Assembly (NCBI RefSeq): GCF_000719775.1
Contig: NZ_JOHR01000005.1
Span: 248,001 to 312,000 of the forward strand
Reading direction: 5' to 3'
Length of the DNA stretch: 64,000 nt
From: Streptomyces sp. NRRL F-5135
GTDB lineage: Bacteria; Actinomycetota; Actinomycetes; Streptomycetales; Streptomycetaceae
A model generated the notes under the pieces. The model made no database searches. It was not told where the DNA came from and saw only the letters and a program-made list of their open reading frames with translations. Made by a program: the position numbers and the translations under genes. Positions 43,886 through 46,052 of the stretch are shown in pieces (position 1 is the stretch's first letter; every line of letters starts with the position of its first letter).

Positions 43886-44035
43886 TCACTGCTCTCGAGG
43901 ACCGGGCGGGAAAACCCCTGCGATCCGTGCGGCCGCAACCTCGGCCCGGAGATCATCGAGCTGGCGTCTCAGCGACCGATGCAGCACGGCGGCCGTAACG
44001 GCTCCCACCACCGCGGCTACGGCTGTTCTGAACAT
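43886..44035 (-). CDS. Small membrane peptide (49 aa)
   Basis: Short frame from ATG 44035 to TGA 43886: a hydrophobic N-terminus MFRTAVAAVVGAVTAAVL, then a charged amphipathic helix HRSLRRQLDDLRAEVAAAR and a Pro-rich tail. GGGGGGA lies 7-8 bases upstream of the ATG. It is 81 bp downstream of the secreted DLGWG peptide gene, separated by a hairpin. Function unknown; coding status is inferred from RBS and composition. Confidence 0.55.
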   Translation of the reverse strand: MFRTAVAAVVGAVTAAVLHRSLRRQLDDLRAEVAAARIAGVFPPGPREQ

Positions 44036-44100: not shown

Positions 44101-44116
44101 TATGTCGTGCGGTGGC

Positions 44117-44299
44117 TCAGCCCCAGCCGAGGTCGTCCGTGTCGGCGTACTGTGAGGGGGAAGCGGTGCCCCATCCAAGGTCGGCGGTCACCGGCGGGGG
44201 CGTTTGGTGCAGTTGCTGAGCGGCTGCGGCCGGCGTGGTGACGAGAGCGGCGAAGAGTGCCAGCGCTGCGGATGCGACCGCCAGGCATGTTGTACGCAT
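44117..44299 (-). CDS. Small secreted peptide precursor with two DLGWG motifs
   Basis: 60 residues from ATG 44299 (GGGGA upstream; upstream in-frame codons lack a signal). Signal peptide LAVASAALALFAALVTTPAAAA with probable cleavage near residue 26-27. The mature ~34-residue part contains DLGWG at 40-44 and again at 56-60, the last five residues. There are no cysteines in the mature part, and nothing resembles a lanthipeptide or lasso core. It is divergent from a LuxR/TrmB-like regulator across an AT-rich gap. A signalling peptide is a reasonable hypothesis, not shown. Confidence 0.65.
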   Translation of the reverse strand: MRTTCLAVASAALALFAALVTTPAAAAQQLHQTPPPVTADLGWGTASPSQYADTDDLGWG

Positions 44300-44385
44300 G
44301 GGTGTCCCCTCTGTGTCCATTGCGTGATGGCCATGTGCCTTACGGTTACACGAGTGACGAGTGTGCACCAGGGGTTAGGTGCTGC

Positions 44386-44428
44386 GAGTTTTTGCAATTG
44401 CAAGTTCTTGCATTCCGTCAAAACGGAA
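44386..44428. promoter_or_regulatory. AT-rich repeat region between peptide and regulator genes
   Basis: Contains the palindrome TTGCAATTGCAA (44392-44403), a further TTGCA at 44408, and TTCCGT-CAAA-ACGGAA (44413-44428), just before the regulator's ribosome site AGGGGGA. Likely operator DNA for the divergent pair. Confidence 0.55.
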
Positions 44429-44440
44429 ATAGGGGGATGA

Positions 44441-45400
44441 ATGTCTGGAGTAGCCCTGTCGCGGGAGGCCATCGCGGCGTACCGGGCGCTCACGCAAGAC
44501 GAGCCGCCACCGGAAGGCAGCGACCTTCAGCCGCTCATCGACCTCGGGCTGGTCACCGCCGACCCCGCCAATCCTGAGCGGGCCATCGCCGCCGACCCCC
44601 GCGGTGTCACGCAGACGCTGATGACGGCCGCCCGCACCGAGATGGCATCGCTGCTCGAGGACATGGCGCTGCTACCGACTCTTGAGGCCACACTGACGGC
44701 CGCCTACGACTCCGACCGTCTCTACAGCGGGCCCGGCGGCGAGTACCTGCCGACCCGGCAGCAGATGAACGCGCGGATCGAGGAAGTGAGCCGACGGGCC
44801 GATCGTGAAATCCTGACCGCGCAGCCCGGCGAGCCGGCCGACCGTGACCCGGAGATACTGCGCCAGGGCGTAGGGCGCGTCTGGCGAGCCCTCGGCAACG
44901 GCGTGCGGGTCAAAAGTCTCTACACGACCCTCGCGTACTCCCACGCACAGACCAGGGCCTACGTACAGGAGATCGCGGACGCCGGCGCTGACGTCCGGGC
45001 GTATCGCCTCAGCTTCCCCCGGATGATGATCATCGACGGCGTGCACCTCTTCATTGACGATCACCTCGCGCGCGACGACGAGACCGACCGGAACGCCGGA
45101 TGGCACATCTTCGACCGCGCCGTAGTCGCCTGGGCACAGTCCATTTTCATGCTGATGTGGGGACGAGCCGTCCGCTGGTCCGAGCTCGGCGAGCCGGAGG
45201 ACAGCATCGTCACCGACCGCCAGGCCGCGATCCTGAGTGAACTCGCCTCCGGTCTGACACAGTCCCGGATCGCACCGCGCCTCGGCCTCGCGCCGCGGAC
45301 CGTCGCCGCTGATCTGGCAGCGCTGAAAGAGCAACTCGGAGCGACCACGATCTACCAGGTCATGGCGTGGTGGGGTCGGGTCGACCGATCCCACCACTGA
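44441..45400 (+). CDS. LuxR-type HTH regulator with TrmB-like N-terminal domain
   Basis: 319 residues from ATG 44441 (AGGGGG upstream). The N-terminal part (LSREAIAAYRALTQDEPPPE) resembles a TrmB-type winged helix. The middle resembles a PLD-like sensor (RLSFPRMMIIDGVHLFIDD). The C-terminal LuxR HTH is VTDRQAAILSELASGLTQSRIAPRLGLAPRTVAADLAALKEQLG. There is no receiver domain or Walker motif. Such orphan regulators are numerous in Streptomyces, with unknown signals. Divergent from the DLGWG peptide gene. Its 3' end overlaps the convergent 75-aa gene by 41 bp. Confidence 0.88.
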   Translation: MSGVALSREAIAAYRALTQDEPPPEGSDLQPLIDLGLVTADPANPERAIAADPRGVTQTLMTAARTEMASLLEDMALLPTLEATLTAAYDSDRLYSGPGGEYLPTRQQMNARIEEVSRRADREILTAQPGEPADRDPEILRQGVGRVWRALGNGVRVKSLYTTLAYSHAQTRAYVQEIADAGADVRAYRLSFPRMMIIDGVHLFIDDHLARDDETDRNAGWHIFDRAVVAWAQSIFMLMWGRAVRWSELGEPEDSIVTDRQAAILSELASGLTQSRIAPRLGLAPRTVAADLAALKEQLGATTIYQVMAWWGRVDRSHH

Positions 45401-45587
45401 AGACCGCCGCGACCTCTGCCGGCGTTGCCGCCCGGACGCATTCCAGGGGCGCGCTCCATGCAGCGCCACCCTCCAGCGGCTCCAGGCAGCACGCGTTAGT
45501 GCGCCGGGAAAGGAGATAACCGATAGCGCCCGTGCGGGTGTCCACGGCCATGCGGTGGCTGGTCTGGCTGCGCCACGGCTCGGGCAC
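45360..45587 (-). CDS. Small hypothetical protein (75 aa)
   Basis: From GTG 45587 with GGAGG six bases upstream. Contains MAVDTRTGAIGYLL, CCLEPLEGGAAWSAPLECVRAAT; the pattern of a small beta-rich protein found near Streptomyces XRE regulators and prophages. Divergent from the XRE gene at 45695, with a palindrome between. Function unknown. Confidence 0.65.
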   Translation of the reverse strand: MPEPWRSQTSHRMAVDTRTGAIGYLLSRRTNACCLEPLEGGAAWSAPLECVRAATPAEVAAVFSGGIGRPDPTTP

Positions 45588-45643
45588 GAACTCCTCCTGT
45601 GGTGTGCGGCGGCCGCGGACGGCTCACCATCTTGATCACAAAA

Positions 45644-45661
45644 TTTCCCTGACCAGGGAAA
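45644..45661. promoter_or_regulatory. Palindromic operator (candidate) between the 75-aa and XRE genes
   Basis: TTTCCCT-GACC-AGGGAAA, 7-bp arms and 4-nt spacer, in a locally AT-rich gap. Probably bound by the adjacent XRE protein. Confidence 0.6.
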
Positions 45662-45694
45662 GACAAGGCGTCATGATCGTCAGAATGTGGCTGG

Positions 45695-45928
45695 GTGTCC
45701 GATCCCCCGCCCGCTTGGGAGCTTTCCCGCCGTCAGGAGATCGGTGTTCGACTGCGTGAGGCCCGGTTGGACGCCGGCCTGACGCAGATACGGCTCGGCG
45801 AGATCGTCGGGCTCAGCCACAAGACGATCCACGGAATCGAGTACGCGACTACCAATCCGAATCTGGGGATGCTGATCCGGATCGCGCGTGCCGTTGGTCG
45901 GCCGCTGTCAGACCTCGTCGGAGACTAA
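45695..45928 (+). CDS. XRE-family HTH regulator (small)
   Basis: 77 residues from GTG 45695. A single HTH domain, GVRLREARLDAGLTQIRLGEIVGLSHKTIHGIEYATTNPNLGMLIRIARAVG. Resembles a phage or plasmid repressor, about the size of minimal XRE proteins. Divergent from the 75-aa gene. Confidence 0.87.
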   Translation: MSDPPPAWELSRRQEIGVRLREARLDAGLTQIRLGEIVGLSHKTIHGIEYATTNPNLGMLIRIARAVGRPLSDLVGD

Positions 45929-46052
45929 GTCGAATTCGTATCGCATGGGTGATTCCTAACATGGCCAGGAACGTCCGGTCGATACTGCGCACGGGCCCCG
46001 GCCGGCGTCCACGAGAGATGACGGCGGCCAGGGCGGTGAACGTGGGCAGACG

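Follow-up and report, generated by a model that had tools for sequence, protein, structure and literature searches.

Comparison of related loci suggests that a divergent D-x-x-W peptide and regulator pair of Streptomyces belongs to an unrecognised family of peptide signals and receptors

Results

The window pair and its surroundings

The pair lies in the window (the whole stretch of 64,000 nucleotides that was analysed) and consists of a small gene for a secreted-type precursor and a divergent gene for a regulator (Table 1). A 60-aa precursor with DLGWG at residues 40-44 and again at its C-terminus, facing a regulator, had been predicted, and this was confirmed in the sequence. In this and all other precursors, the signal-like N-terminus was judged by eye and by a hydrophobic-run filter. 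The block of peptide gene, regulator gene and small HTH_3 gene occurs a second time on G000:C8 near 299190 (L002), with the same DLGWG code, and the window precursor has an 87% identical copy elsewhere in its own genome. ORFs resembling the 49-aa membrane-helix ORF are present at L002, L016, L018 and L019; none was seen beside L014, L015, L017, L021 and L023, and no Pfam family matched this ORF over the cut-off. We noticed no gene for an importer next to the window pair, and Pfam recognised no modifying enzyme in the five neighbouring ORFs searched with it.

The TTGCA repeats between the two genes were considered as a family operator and dropped, as they are local to the window and unconserved across the family. 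Inverted repeats upstream of window-type regulators were weak, being equalled by 2 to 22 of 200 resampled sequences at the 7 loci scored.

Table 1. Features of the peptide and regulator locus (positions in the window)
Feature	Position	Strand	Basis or remark
Secreted-type precursor peptide, 60 aa	44117..44299, stop codon included	-	ORF; homologous arrangement in relatives
Signal-peptide-like N-terminus, residues 1-27	44219..44299	-	By eye from sequence
Motif copy 1, DLGWG, residues 40-44	44168..44182	-	Sequence
Motif copy 2, DLGWG, residues 56-60 (C-terminus)	44120..44134	-	Sequence
Regulator, 319 aa	44441..45400	+	Divergent from precursor gene
Ile124 codon; class of this residue matches P2 across pairs	44810..44812	+	Comparison of pairs
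Intergenic region common to both genes	44300..44440	.	Presumed divergent promoters and operator
Palindrome TTGCAATTGCAA	44392..44403	.	Kept in duplicate L002, absent from the other loci listed
Additional TTGCA	44408-44412	.	Beside the palindrome
Small membrane-helix ORF, 49 aa, SLRRQLDDLRAEVAAARIAG	43886..44035	-	3' of peptide gene
Duplicated block: peptide, regulator, small HTH_3 gene	44108..46037	.	90% DNA identity to G000:C8
HTH_3 (XRE-like) gene, 77 aa	45695..45928	+	Inside duplicated block; tie to the pair putative

The regulator has a TrmB-like build with a PLD-like domain and a LuxR-type HTH

The regulator is made up of a TrmB-like winged helix and coil (about residues 1-95), a degenerate PLD-like domain (97-248) and a LuxR/GerE HTH (256-316), so that profile and structure-model matches bear out the build proposed in the original prediction. 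The solved structures closest to our model (pLDDT 89.7, pTM 0.65, from an alignment of 55 sequences) are TrmBL2, PLD nucleases and GerE/TraR. The TrmBL2 match spans residues 2-247, which places the winged helix, the coil and a PLD-like effector-type domain in the protein, and the family profile reaches both TrmBL2 and GerE by sequence alone. The C-terminal GerE HTH matches PF00196 over the cut-off and the structures 1fse and 1l3l. Pfam gave no match at E<=0.1 to TPR repeats, other folds accounting for nearly the whole model, or to the autoinducer-binding domain of AHL-type LuxR proteins, the HTH being preceded by the PLD-like fold.

The PLD-like domain of TrmB binds effectors. The catalytic PLD motif H-x-K-x4-D was found in 0/55 and in 0/239 regulators, and because of the latter count the domain looks like a non-catalytic one of the sensor type; the place of the catalytic Lys (194) is taken by Arg in 238/239 regulators. 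In the model, Ile124 lies within this domain, in strand 123-128, ahead of a conserved Q-P-G.

Motif peptides accompany related regulators

A survey of 199 genomes of the genus, in which window-type regulators were defined at E<=1e-30, gave 12 loci in 11 genomes, the window's own genome counted. Ten of these loci have a divergent secreted-type ORF with a motif (DLGWG, DVGWG, DPGWG, DIGWG, DSDWG or DTTW), L020 and L022 being without one, and nine of the ten precursors end exactly in D-x-x-W-G. Conservation of the C-terminal pentapeptide beside such regulators, which had been put forward as a sign of a signalling pair, is thus what the relatives present.

A distant paralogue in the same genome (L004, 27% identity) has a precursor with four copies of DIGW. 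Relatives of L004 were found in 180/199 genomes at E<=1e-30, including 19 that match only at E above 1e-100 and may be other paralogues. All four regions examined have the L004-type paralogue between dnaK-grpE-dnaJ-hspR and clpB. A motif ORF was present in 108/110 hspR-side loci examined, these being the best-ranked matches and no random sample, and their precursors carry, among other motifs, six copies of DITWG, DTGWG or EISW, nine of DSGWG or ten of DSTW, or else a lone copy. The motif D/E-P2-P3-W, in which P2 and P3 denote the two variable positions, occurs in 1-10 copies in small ORFs divergent from related regulators. Between the two genes of hspR-side pairs, the DNA shows strong conservation, with AACATGA in 122/124 and ATGATGC in 121/124 (2-3 in shuffles). 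In the same type, a 106-aa protein follows the peptide gene (L024:803-1120, minus strand, and relatives); its Rieske-like Pfam match is weak (E 0.008) and does not reach the cut-off.

A profile combining both kinds of regulator matched 289/293 genomes of the order and 8/9 genera at E<=1e-25, and the window protein matched 5/394 genomes of the class at E<=1e-20. Other genera of the order contributed 30 loci (L201-L230), of which two have a C-terminal motif (L210, DLTWG; L213, DLSWG), one, L211, a single internal copy, and none a repeated motif.

Among 230 distinct regulators, each with at least 250 bp upstream, the divergent ORF carries an identically repeated [DE]xxW in 119 cases, a count that L002 escaped through the length filter despite its two copies, and any [DE]xxW motif in 158, a figure that includes some chance ORFs. 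The same loci hold 4480 ORFs of 35-260 aa, of which 120 are repeat ORFs; 119 of them are the regulator-divergent ones and the sole one lying elsewhere is at L169. By profile score of the regulator, repeats are present in 79/84 (340 or above), 37/58 (300-340), 3/44 (200-300) and 0/44 (below 200). No motif ORF was detected at L119, L132 and L296 with the filters used, nor at the distant regulators L003 and L005. L003 stands beside a TetR-like ORF, and such relatives may have a signal other than a motif peptide. Near the other distant regulator lies a Cys/Gly-rich small ORF with a RiPP-like look (L005:92-289, ...GCGSGCGCGCQSGGSCQCGGSCG).

The repeated unit is D-P2-P3-W

The repeat set comprised 119 precursors with 415 copies, entry having required one identical pair. 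All 415 copies agree within their precursor over D-P2-P3-W, whereas identity between precursors is 0.25 at P2 and 0.32 at P3. At P5 it is 0.70 within and 0.14 between precursors, and at P-1 0.26 and 0.18. Since P2 and P3 agree within precursors and differ between them, and since identity drops at P5 and P-1, the unit, as judged from these alignments, is D-P2-P3-W. The D-P2-P3 codons are identical in 303 of the 732 copy pairs and not in 429, so the copies are more than fresh DNA duplications. Outside the repeat set, L027, L081, L090 and L184 have precursors with two unequal motifs, one of those in L081 having Arg at P2. We saw no common protease site in the 119 repeat precursors, because identity on either side of the motif is close to background. 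Conservation of the signal peptide only, the outcome named as speaking against the original prediction, is contradicted by these data: the D, the W and the within-precursor identity of P2 and P3 are kept, and the flanks are not.

Residue 124 of the regulator matches P2

We then compared motif and regulator across a first set of 139/142 pairs with a profile score of at least 300 (L166, L168 and L176 were dropped by the score cut). Column 124 tracks P2 with r 0.77 against a 99% null maximum of 0.52 (best of 324 columns). In the first sister-pair test, with 68 sister pairs of regulators of which 16 differ at P2, no other column rose above r 0.34 for P2. For P3 and P5 no column was significant, the best ones (131/135 and 181/139/136) all lying under the null. 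In this set, Met124 pairs have Ser (48) or Pro (2) at P2, Leu124 pairs Pro (2) and the Gln124 pair Ser (1). Val124 goes with Ile (37), Thr (20), Leu (11) and Val (7), and Ile, Phe or Ala at 124 solely with Ile, Leu or Thr. The resulting class rule, whose classes were set after seeing the 139 pairs, joins Met, Leu or Gln at 124 to Ser or Pro at P2, and Val, Ile, Ala or Phe at 124 to Ile, Leu, Val, Thr or (from the final set on) Phe. The first set required at least 19 class changes on the regulator tree, and 8/8 independent pairs on supported branches agreed.

The held-out set, which comes from the same genus and so offsets the late choice of classes only in part, contained 60 new loci, 59 of them with a motif and 58 of these non-duplicates. 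The rule, written beforehand, held in 55/58 pairs, and the set included 10 Leu-Pro pairs, a class seen twice in the first set. The misses were L270 and L272, in which Ala is combined with Phe at P2, a residue the rule did not cover, and L297, where the regular expression picked EETW and the DLAWD of the same precursor fits Val. In the final set of 194 pairs (139 + 55, with near-identical held-out rows merged, L297 relabelled DLAW and Phe placed in the large class), class concordance was 194/194, with at least 19 switches on a regulator tree built without column 124. Independent pairs on supported branches were concordant in 12/12 cases (p 0.0005), in 5/5 on the tree of the N-terminal part (p 0.06) and in 6/6 on that of the C-terminal part (p 0.03). 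Leave-one-out prediction reached an accuracy of 0.995 with column 124 and 0.84 with the next one, a majority guess giving 0.593. As a control, we took the gene of the 106-aa protein, which flanks the peptide gene on its far side and was found in 182/194 loci; its best column reached r 0.31, and in these same loci column 124 reached 0.80.

Two regulators that are 93% identical, L099 (DTRW, Val) and L106 (DSRW, Met), differ in both code and residue. Ten distant pairs also fit the rule (L157, L168, L213, L231, L234, L235, L236, L240, L242 and L259). L166 breaks it with Ile beside DSTW; L237 (Thr/Pro), L241 (Ser/His) and L210 (Cys/Leu) have residues that the rule does not name, and L176 has no alignment at the place of residue 124. 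Going by the residues involved, the code is steric, a small P2 being combined with a large residue and a large P2 with a small one. Direct recognition of P2 by residue 124 would be the simplest reading of this pattern.

Counterparts in S. coelicolor

The SCO2686 primer piece was located in S. hyderabadensis, directly 5' of a gene that belongs to the family; the precursor divergent from this member has DDSQWG at its end. Between hspR and clpB of the same species, four family regulators stand side by side (L164:6062-10397), and one motif peptide gene, with DSVWS, was seen in this cluster. From the primer match and the gene order, and with the SCO numbers of hspR and clpB that we assume, we infer that these members correspond to SCO2686 and SCO3663-SCO3666. 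SCO2686-type relatives were found in 51/150 genomes at E<=1e-60, hspR-side types included, and 8/30 loci examined have the motif at the C-terminus of the divergent ORF, the others having it internally or not at all. In published work, SCO3665, SCO3666 and SCO2686 are listed as LuxR regulators of 327, 394 and 338 aa (PMC3282765), ArgR is reported to bind upstream of SCO2686 (PMC5839063, PMC3293853), and the genes whose disruption by insertion raises actinorhodin include SCO2686 and SCO3664, the latter among the >50-fold mutants (PMC6585502). By the same primer match and gene order, SCO2686 and SCO3664 are probable family members with a phenotype.

Discussion

We consider it likely that the window genes form a peptide-signal and receptor pair. 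The precursor would be exported by Sec, and proteolysis would free short D-P2-P3-W peptides, in the window around DLGWG. These would be taken up again, probably through an oligopeptide permease, and would occupy a pocket in the non-catalytic PLD-like domain of the adjoining TrmB/LuxR-type regulator, where residue 124 would contact P2. Binding would then alter the hold of the LuxR HTH on DNA at the common intergenic region and elsewhere. The data support paired genes, a repeated motif that varies between loci and a match at one residue; binding, export, cleavage and maturation, re-import, operator and output are what we infer. Export, cleavage and re-import are the likely route because the motif follows a signal-like N-terminus. 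The idea of a peptide-signalling pair, in which the regulator controls or senses the peptide, gains support from the comparison of relatives and can be narrowed, since the match of P2 with residue 124 argues for direct sensing.

Alternatively, the regulator could bind unexported precursor in the cytoplasm and so read blocked Sec export or proteostasis stress, with no re-import. The place of the common paralogue between dnaK-grpE-dnaJ-hspR and clpB in four regions would suit such a sensor, as would a motif that stands closely behind the signal-like segment in many precursors, and an unlinked importer would be unnecessary. We nevertheless regard it as unlikely: there would be no obvious reason to recode it, yet the P2 class has changed together with the receptor on at least 19 occasions, even among close relatives, much as pherotypes do, and the window pair is on contig C5 while its own genome's hspR-clpB locus is on C13. 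Still less probable is a regulator that controls a secreted effector (an antimicrobial, a protease inhibitor or a RiPP-like product) without sensing it. Regulators often lie divergent from their target genes, and effector peptides, too, can have multi-copy precursors, as is generally known, but this reading would leave the match in a sensor-like domain in 194/194 pairs, and its absence from the linked neighbour gene, unexplained, and no modifying enzyme was recognised among the five neighbouring ORFs. That the association of P2 with residue 124 reflects nothing more than linkage, gene conversion or common ancestry seems very improbable to us, for although the genes are adjacent, the loci related and the classes picked after the first 139 pairs, the tree without column 124 still requires these switches, and other columns (r 0.34 at most) and the 106-aa neighbour gene (0.31) do not track P2 in this way.

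Direct sensing of an exported and re-imported peptide is known from the RRNPP systems of Firmicutes, such as PlcR-PapR, NprR-NprX, Rap-Phr, Rgg-SHP and PrgX. According to PMC10075063, a small secreted-type propeptide is encoded there beside a receptor of 250-500 aa with a DNA-binding domain, and the peptide is exported, cleaved and re-imported; the adjacent genes, the short C-terminal or repeated peptide and the pair-specific codes of our family are alike. Unlike RRNPP receptors, the window regulator is a TrmB/PLD-like protein with a LuxR HTH and no TPR repeats, it comes from Actinobacteria, and the motif is D-x-x-W. Because its receptor has no TPR domain, the window pair is not an RRNPP member, though it would work like one.

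TrmB is a sugar sensor. Like archaeal TrmB and TrmBL2, the window regulator has a winged helix, a coil and a PLD-like domain, aligned over residues 2-247, and it differs from them by its extra C-terminal LuxR HTH; the ligand of TrmB is a sugar (the PDB title of 2f5t names a sugar binding domain), whereas that proposed here is a peptide. With actinobacterial LuxR solos it shares a LuxR-type HTH and a signal that is not known. Unlike them, it has a PLD-like sensor and an adjoining peptide gene, with no autoinducer-binding domain at E<=0.1. In S. coelicolor, according to PMC9640686, the oligopeptide transporter BldK imports a peptide presumed to be a signal for aerial mycelium, and the poor conservation of its binding protein has suggested strain-specific peptides. 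We considered a family peptide as the 655-Da BldK substrate and rejected it, as the plain masses of the eight computed peptides are not 655 Da.

Databases hold 39 matches to one family precursor, the named ones being hypothetical, uncharacterised or 5'-nucleotidase, and a single match to the window precursor, its own paralogue. Six repeat precursors (P0002, P0005, P0007, P0008, P0010 and P0032) are publicly labelled 5'-nucleotidase, apparently a wrong name. For the two precursors tried, no Pfam family passed the cut-off, with one weak DUF3551 match (E 0.047), and NCBIfam has no family for the window precursor. A search of literature that takes in few subscription journals and no preprints found, in the text it reached, no paper describing D-x-x-W peptides, and the matches listed for the motif strings are all unrelated by title.

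Nearly 200 related pairs suggest that bacteria have a family of peptide signals and receptors that has gone unrecognised. Most likely, the regulator binds a D-x-x-W peptide and the pairs are a pheromone-receptor family that would work like RRNPP with an unrelated receptor; codes that shift between close relatives favour communication. Signalling in Streptomyces is best known through gamma-butyrolactones, and to our knowledge the imported peptide signal presumed to pass through BldK has never been identified. As a tentative proposal, possible though somewhat doubtful, D-x-x-W peptides would be a pherotype system of Streptomyces, with variable exported pheromones, a PLD-fold receptor and a one-residue P2 code. 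It would lie beside hspR in most species, with accessory pairs such as that of the window, would steer antibiotic production and could include the long-sought developmental signals imported by oligopeptide permease. The analysis supplies a ligand motif, a receptor, a candidate pocket residue and a specificity rule that are open to tests with synthetic pentapeptides. If the reading is true, a PLD-fold sensor would here have a peptide as its ligand for the first time, as far as we know.
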